Part shown: positions 10,205 through 64,000 of the stretch, in pieces
Position numbering within the stretch: the first letter of the stretch is position 1
Layout of the letters: the number at the start of each line of letters is the position of its first letter
DNA from: Haliclystus octoradiatus
Lineage: Eukaryota > Cnidaria > Staurozoa > Stauromedusae > Haliclystidae
Reading direction: 5' to 3'
Length of the DNA: 64,000 nucleotides
Assembly (NCBI GenBank): GCA_916610825.1
Contig: OU744447.1
Location: 13,933,751-13,997,750, forward strand
Program-made: the position numbers and the translations under genes
Notes under the pieces: model-generated
The model's input: the letters and a program-made list of their open reading frames with translations, nothing else
Databases searched by the model: none
Told to the model about the DNA's origin: nothing

Positions 10205-10286
10205 ATGATGTATCTGTTGTGCCCCCCAATACTTCTTGGCCTGTTTATTGCTTTGTCAACGCTAGAGAACTTCGTTAAAGCCGAAG
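10205..10286 (+). CDS. Exon 1 of the receptor phosphatase: signal peptide
   Basis: Two adjacent ATGs (10205 and 10208) open a short frame with a hydrophobic core ([17 protein letters not shown]) followed by a polar stretch ending near VKAE, a typical cleavable secretion signal. The exon ends in phase 1 at a GTAAGC donor, which matches the phase-1 acceptor at 11829/11830; the joined text runs from KAE into VCKQ, the start of discoidin domain 1. No ATG lies further upstream in this frame. Promoter and 5' UTR were not identified. Confidence 0.8.

Positions 10287-64000: not shown

Follow-up and report, generated by a model that had tools for sequence, protein, structure and literature searches.

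A predicted receptor tyrosine phosphatase with six discoidin domains and a long FN3 ectodomain, member of a tandemly expanded family in Haliclystus octoradiatus

We analysed a stretch of 64,000 nucleotides from the staurozoan Haliclystus octoradiatus (assembly GCA_916610825.1, contig OU744447.1, positions 13,933,751 to 13,997,750, forward strand; hereafter the window). We predict with high confidence that a single gene in it encodes a large receptor protein tyrosine phosphatase (PTP) of type I membrane topology, with discoidin (F5/8C) and FN3 domains outside the cell and two phosphatase domains (D1 and D2) inside, and that this gene belongs to a tandemly expanded family. It appears to be a real, unusual receptor type instead of two genes read as one. 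The strongest evidence for a one-gene receptor is that two paralogous loci repeat the order F5/8C, FN3, furin module and PTP on one strand. The interest of the gene lies in this unusual architecture, well supported by the sequence, and in the tandem family; the function is inferred only.

For the gene model, we read the forward open frames of at least 38 codons overlapping 10-64 kb, leaving out low-complexity frames. Splice sites were placed around each domain core, with frames fixed by homology, and the exons were then joined. The final model contains 53 exons at 10205-63144 on the plus strand (9090 coding bases, 3030 aa), with no stops and with GT-AG at all 52 introns. Its start codon at 10205 has an in-frame stop 5' of it, at 10088. 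The gene likely extends beyond the window: a candidate terminal exon at 65649-65726 (window numbering), short and weakly conserved, lies about 1.6 kb past the window end and completes D2 down to a stop codon; with it, the model has 54 exons and 3055 aa. The preliminary description had placed the gene at 10,205-64,000, and we keep its start and place its likely end in this exon outside the window.

The Pfam domain search was made on an earlier model of 52 exons, which was later edited by removing 12 residues before F5/8C domain 5 and adding exon 50846-50921. The acceptor 52184 of the transmembrane exon was dropped for 52182 after that exon came to light, and acceptor 57549 of D2 produces stops, which 57548 does not. 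The splice model, Pfam and inspection by eye recovered the exon chain first proposed for this DNA (signal-peptide-like start, six F5/8C, eleven FN3, furin-type site, transmembrane segment, D1 and D2), with F5/8C and Y_phosphatase both matched in the same exon chain. The proposed list holds for the modules it named and was incomplete, as two extra FN3-like modules lie between FN3 11 and the membrane. In positions 1-9992 of the window, no Pfam match was found at E <= 0.01 (six frames, with stops as X; short exons could escape). The tRNA search found none, and neither did Rfam at gathering scores. The features of the model, in window positions, are:

10205..10286, plus strand: exon 1, start codon and signal-peptide-like segment (aa 1-27); phase-1 donor, hydrophobic start by eye
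11830..13860 (exons 11830-12158, 13701-13860), plus strand: F5/8C domain 1; PF00754, 65.1 bits
14483..17639 (14483-14805, 17483-17639), plus strand: F5/8C domain 2; PF00754, 60.6 bits
18604..24450 (18604-18869, 24312-24450), plus strand: F5/8C domain 3; PF00754, 32 bits, cut-off 28.2
27752..28855 (27752-28101, 28693-28855), plus strand: F5/8C domain 4; PF00754, 52 bits
29544..31700 (29544-29875, 31547-31700), plus strand: F5/8C domain 5; PF00754, 69.5 bits, scored with a 12-aa longer start at 29508
32419..33398 (32419-32690, 33254-33398), plus strand: F5/8C domain 6; PF00754, 39.6 bits, donor 33398 best in frame
33748..34038, plus strand: FN3 1, the first after the discoidin block; acceptor best in frame, phase fitting donor 33398, one of four fn3 stretches in its query protein
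34159..34793 (34159-34229, 34541-34793), plus strand: FN3 2; Pfam fn3, model donor 34229 not top-scoring
35723..37473 (35723-35790, 37221-37473), plus strand: FN3 3; Pfam fn3 and exon chain
37630..37926, plus strand: FN3 4; Pfam fn3 and exon chain
38766..39071, plus strand: FN3 5; Pfam fn3 and exon chain
40285..40840 (40285-40352, 40591-40840), plus strand: FN3 6; Pfam fn3, model donor 40840 not top-scoring
40926..41225, plus strand: FN3 7; Pfam fn3, model acceptor not top-scoring
41527..41931 (41527-41594, 41679-41931), plus strand: FN3 8; Pfam fn3 and exon chain
42764..43060, plus strand: FN3 9; Pfam fn3 and exon chain
43877..45488 (43877-44085, 45422-45488), plus strand: FN3 10; Pfam fn3 and exon chain
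45595..47276 (45595-45701, 47069-47276), plus strand: FN3 11; Pfam fn3 and exon chain
47882..49574 (47882-47984, 48887-49136, 49526-49574), plus strand: putative FN3-like module 12 (aa 2080-2213)
50023..50921 (50023-50128, 50472-50760, 50846-50921), plus strand: putative FN3-like module 13, membrane-proximal (aa 2214-2370); weak Fn3_PTPRU
50668..50682, plus strand: furin-type site RKRRS (aa 2315-2319), a sequence motif within module 13
52182..52266, plus strand: transmembrane exon, helix 52187-52261; hydrophobic stretch by eye, phase set by exon 50846-50921
52359..52753 (52359-52495, 52581-52753), plus strand: juxtamembrane segment and start of D1; exon chain, acceptor 52581 weak
52842..56806 (52842-52929, 53133-53200, 53550-53586, 53765-53862, 54396-54515, 55491-55648, 55904-56039, 56657-56806), plus strand: D1; PF00102, PTPRS alignment, motifs
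57548..63144 (57548-57647, 58051-58127, 59606-59740, 60181-60306, 60941-61095, 63009-63144), plus strand: D2; PF00102, motifs

All six F5/8C domains, at 32 to 69.5 bits, cleared the Pfam gathering cut-off of 28.2, and each is encoded by two exons and begins in phase 1. For domain 5, acceptor 29544 outscores the alternative start at 29508. A FastTree tree of the six domains grouped 3 with 6 (0.95), 2 with 5 (0.89) and thereby 1 with 4 (0.74), a pattern that would fit a three-domain block duplicated in register. This reading is only suggestive: the domains align over a short length at 15 to 34% identity, support for pairing 1 with 4 is weak, and domain 1 is closer by raw identity to domain 5 (34%) than to domain 4 (31%). 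Domain 1 also displays an RGD tripeptide (aa 54-56, window 11907-11915), which may be chance.

Pfam fn3 matched eleven stretches at E <= 1, spread over three query proteins (4 + 5 + 2, with whole-protein E-values of 2.5e-39, 5.5e-42 and 5.1e-24). For modules 12 and 13, no Pfam family scored above its cut-off and no PDB match was convincing, module 13 reaching 19.3 and 16.4 bits against Fn3_PTPRU (cut-off 24.7); for that reason, FN3-like is a label that we infer. Both modules are built of three exons, with phases 2 and 0 at the internal junctions, and exons 47882-47984 and 49526-49574 of module 12 were picked by splice scores and phase. All 13 FN3 or FN3-like modules begin in phase 1, like the F5/8C domains; uniform phase-1 module starts are what exon shuffling would be expected to leave. 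Two types of FN3 domain are interspersed along the chain: the two-exon domains 2, 3, 6 and 8 have a common cysteine pair spaced nine residues apart, and the single-exon domains 4, 5, 7 and 9 contain no cysteines.

To score the junctions, splice-site models were trained with the tested site left out, and the best donor and acceptor for each exon frame were chosen blind to phase. In the 52-exon model, 45 of the 51 junctions were phase-compatible, against 17 expected for random phases, in a test that partly depends on the model because frames come from homology and scans begin inside model exons. The model's own site was the best one for 44/51 acceptors and 48/51 donors. Six junctions failed (exons 15 to 16, 22 to 23, 35 to 36, 37 to 38, 44 to 45 and 46 to 47). 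The failure at 35 to 36 led us to the missing exon 50846-50921; the remaining five junctions rest on homology, not on site strength.

The search for paralogues covered the genome (262 Mb, 33 contigs) and retrieved 88 PTP exon matches; for F5/8C, scoring 150 of 260 candidates gave at least 144 matches. PTP matches were joined into one locus when they lay on one strand with gaps under 15 kb, which gave 28 loci. Six of these, including the window gene, have F5/8C on the same strand within 150 kb upstream; on the opposite strand, none of the 28 does. For three of the six, the PTP side consists of just one exon match, and at one of the six the nearest F5/8C match is 137 kb off. F5/8C lies downstream on the same strand at three of the 28 loci, all within the tandem array, as is expected of tandem copies and also of separate adjoining genes.

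Two of these paralogous loci, on contig C2, were studied with the profiles of the window gene. On the minus strand, both present F5/8C, then FN3, then PTP exons, with no plus-strand matches at E <= 0.01, and their F5/8C intron sits at about the same profile position as in the window gene. With tblastn of the window protein (E <= 1), all matching pieces fell on the minus strand (24/24 and 22/22). The furin-bearing exon of module 13 (50472-50760) was matched in both loci, between the FN3 and PTP exons, with 34.7 and 35.6% identity, and the basic site in the matching exon is SQKRRRRT in both. Between this exon and D1, a transmembrane-like segment was found in one paralogue; the eight candidates listed for the other were repeats.

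A composite query built from one paralogue, with 55 of 201 candidates scored, gave 56 matches. Its three F5/8C parts each recur seven times at 2.53-5.25 Mb of C2, which makes seven tandem sets. Assigning matches to sets by their coordinates, five of the seven have FN3 matches, five have PTP matches in register, four have both and one has neither, among the matches listed. The preliminary description had suggested a possibly lineage-specific receptor; the part borne out is an expansion in this one genome. The paralogue at 5.18 Mb may be a pseudophosphatase: a D1 exon that matches weakly (E 1.1) reads WPT for WPD and YC for HC, and scanning for the motif G.G[RKQHS].G revealed no P-loop of D1 at that locus. 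The paralogue at 4.65 Mb retains WPD and HC in D1. Further clusters of F5/8C exon matches were seen on contigs C8 (17.9-19.4 Mb) and C1 (16.7-18.7 Mb); among the matches listed, no PTP locus lies within 150 kb of them.

The disputed point is the interval between 33398 and 33748, where two adjacent genes could have been joined: a secreted six-discoidin protein ending just past 33398, and an FN3 receptor phosphatase starting at about 33669 with its own signal peptide. The frame past 33398 does hit a stop within a few codons, the ATG at 33669 opens a hydrophobic frame leading into FN3 1, and AATATA, a variant poly(A) signal, is present there in two copies. Against this, donor 33398 and acceptor 33748 are both the best sites in frame and their phases are compatible, so the junction passes. 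The frame at 33669 scores like an intron (-0.25 per codon over 25 codons), below all 120 exon windows and at or below 77% of 253 open intron windows, with a codon table built from these same exons and introns, which flatters the contrast. Neither AATAAA nor ATTAAA is present in the intron, though about 0.9 would be expected by chance; given this expectation and the two AATATA copies, the poly(A) argument against two genes is weak. Moreover, in both C2 paralogues the F5/8C exons precede the FN3 and PTP exons and share their strand, and the match positions of the other copies agree. We consider two genes very improbable, and the one-gene claim made earlier for this DNA survives at both of its bridges: at 33.4-33.7 kb through its splice sites and the non-coding look of the 33669 frame, and from FN3 11 to the membrane through the furin-bearing module in two paralogues and the transmembrane-like segment in one.

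An assembly artefact that juxtaposed unrelated domain blocks would also produce such a chain in assembled sequence. Yet the same domain order recurs in two separate paralogous loci, and the best match elsewhere to the PTP part of the window is a single exon at 59% identity (78 of 91 candidates scored), which leaves this explanation with hardly any probability. A single transcription unit could also yield more than one product through alternative splicing or alternative polyadenylation, soluble discoidin-FN3 proteins among them, with the full receptor as only one form. Because each of the 13 FN3 or FN3-like modules has a phase-1 start, skipping whole modules would preserve the frame, and receptor phosphatases commonly have isoforms of this sort. 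This reading does not conflict with the single receptor gene that we favour, and we rate it as possible, if somewhat unlikely.

At the catalytic level, Pfam Y_phosphatase matched the protein in two stretches, D1 and D2 (450.5 bits), and D2 with the exon outside the window scored 205.7 bits for PF00102; its acceptor 57548 scores below another acceptor in frame. D1 keeps KNRF, WPD (aa 2656) and HCSAGVGR (aa 2690) and is probably active. Its activity is perhaps weak, because Ala follows the P-loop Arg at the place where PTPs usually have Ser or Thr. D2 is probably inactive, because it has WKD (aa 2949) and QCSNGAGR (aa 2983) instead of the catalytic motifs. It also shows EFVENE at the position of QMVQRT in D1 and probably lacks the Q-loop glutamine.

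Regarding the mechanism, the discoidin block would bind a matrix or cell-surface ligand, and the FN3 rod would set its reach. Furin may cut the chain and leave the ectodomain held on a membrane stub, as the furin-cut ectodomain of LAR-type phosphatases remains bound to theirs. Ligand binding or crowding could then shift the position or clustering of D1, which would remove phosphate from tyrosines, with D2 in a regulatory role. The receptor family would have expanded in tandem in this genome, possibly with one or more members that lack catalytic activity. Going further, these genes might form a new, lineage-expanded class ("discoidin-RPTP"), made up of the tandem array and, dispersed from it, the window gene. 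Its active and pseudophosphatase members would sense the identity of matrix or cells, perhaps in recognition, with dead members as decoys or scaffolds; we regard this as speculative and rather doubtful. A tandem family whose members possibly differ in catalytic competence would make the evolution of ectodomains and pseudophosphatases testable within one genome.

Intron 7 harbors a LINE-like retrotransposon at 24918-27114 (+), whose endonuclease (43.6 bits) and reverse transcriptase (121 bits) matched in different frames. In intron 6, a 266-aa open frame at 21991-22788 (+) resembles by eye the GIY-YIG endonuclease region of Penelope-type elements, with no Pfam match at E <= 0.01. Long, near-perfect ATT/AAT triplet arrays of 93 to 186 copies lie in introns at 20723-21076, 23105-23382 and 50988-51544, and a 46-bp unit is repeated 3.5 times (96% matches) at 56331-56492, between two D1 exons.

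When compared with known systems, the predicted protein has what receptor PTPs have in general: an extracellular part, one transmembrane segment (by eye) and an intracellular classical PTP domain, with WPD and HCX5R in D1. Its D1-D2 region scored 430 bits with PTPRS and 422 with PTPRF/LAR, of the LAR-type (R2A), with which it shares the tandem D1-D2 and the single transmembrane segment. It also has numerous FN3 domains and a putative membrane-proximal cleavage site, as the LAR-type class (PTPRS, PTPRF, PTPRD) does. That class carries N-terminal Ig domains followed by FN3, whereas here there are six N-terminal F5/8C domains and no Ig above cut-off; the two Ig-named Pfam matches fall in FN3 regions and under their own cut-offs. 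The P-loops of this gene also differ from R2A, with RAG in D1 and QCSNGAGR in D2. PTPRA, of R4, scored near PTPRS (424.5 bits for D1-D2, in two stretches) and PTPRE reached 381.7; both have a short ectodomain without adhesion domains. By these scores PTPRS is the nearest relative of the PTP domains, followed closely by PTPRA and PTPRF/LAR, and no one subfamily is singled out.

Among single-domain chains, D1 of PTPRT (R2B, with PTPRM, K and U) reached 249 bits, level with 2nv5 (labelled protein-tyrosine-phosphatase), and module 13 is weakly like Fn3_PTPRU. R2B receptors combine MAM, Ig and FN3; this gene has no MAM match at E <= 1 and no Ig above cut-off. R3 receptors have an FN3 ectodomain and a single PTP domain, against two Y_phosphatase stretches here, and R5 receptors have a carbonic-anhydrase-like domain, for which no match appeared at E <= 1. 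To our knowledge, no receptor phosphatase class has F5/8C, and the titles and abstracts returned by a literature search named no such receptor, in a weak search where the slash in "F5/8" may be poorly matched.

The closest solved F5/8C domains by sequence were those of factor V (up to 94.4 bits) and neuropilin-1 (up to 76.2), among the best 60 of 64. Neuropilins and coagulation factors V and VIII have no phosphatase and carry other partner domains. DDR1 and DDR2 likewise place an F5/8C ectodomain on a tyrosine-signalling receptor, and the DDR2 discoidin domain (2z4f) scored 40.9 bits. DDRs carry a tyrosine kinase, and their discoidin domains convert matrix contact into tyrosine phosphorylation. 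In contrast, the present gene has PTP domains and no kinase match at E <= 1, the opposite output, and a cell with a DDR-like ectodomain over a phosphatase could answer such contact with the opposite signal. The architecture fits none of R2A, R2B, R3, R5 or DDR; judging from its domains, the protein would act as receptor phosphatases do, with a ligand-binding end resembling that of DDRs or neuropilins.
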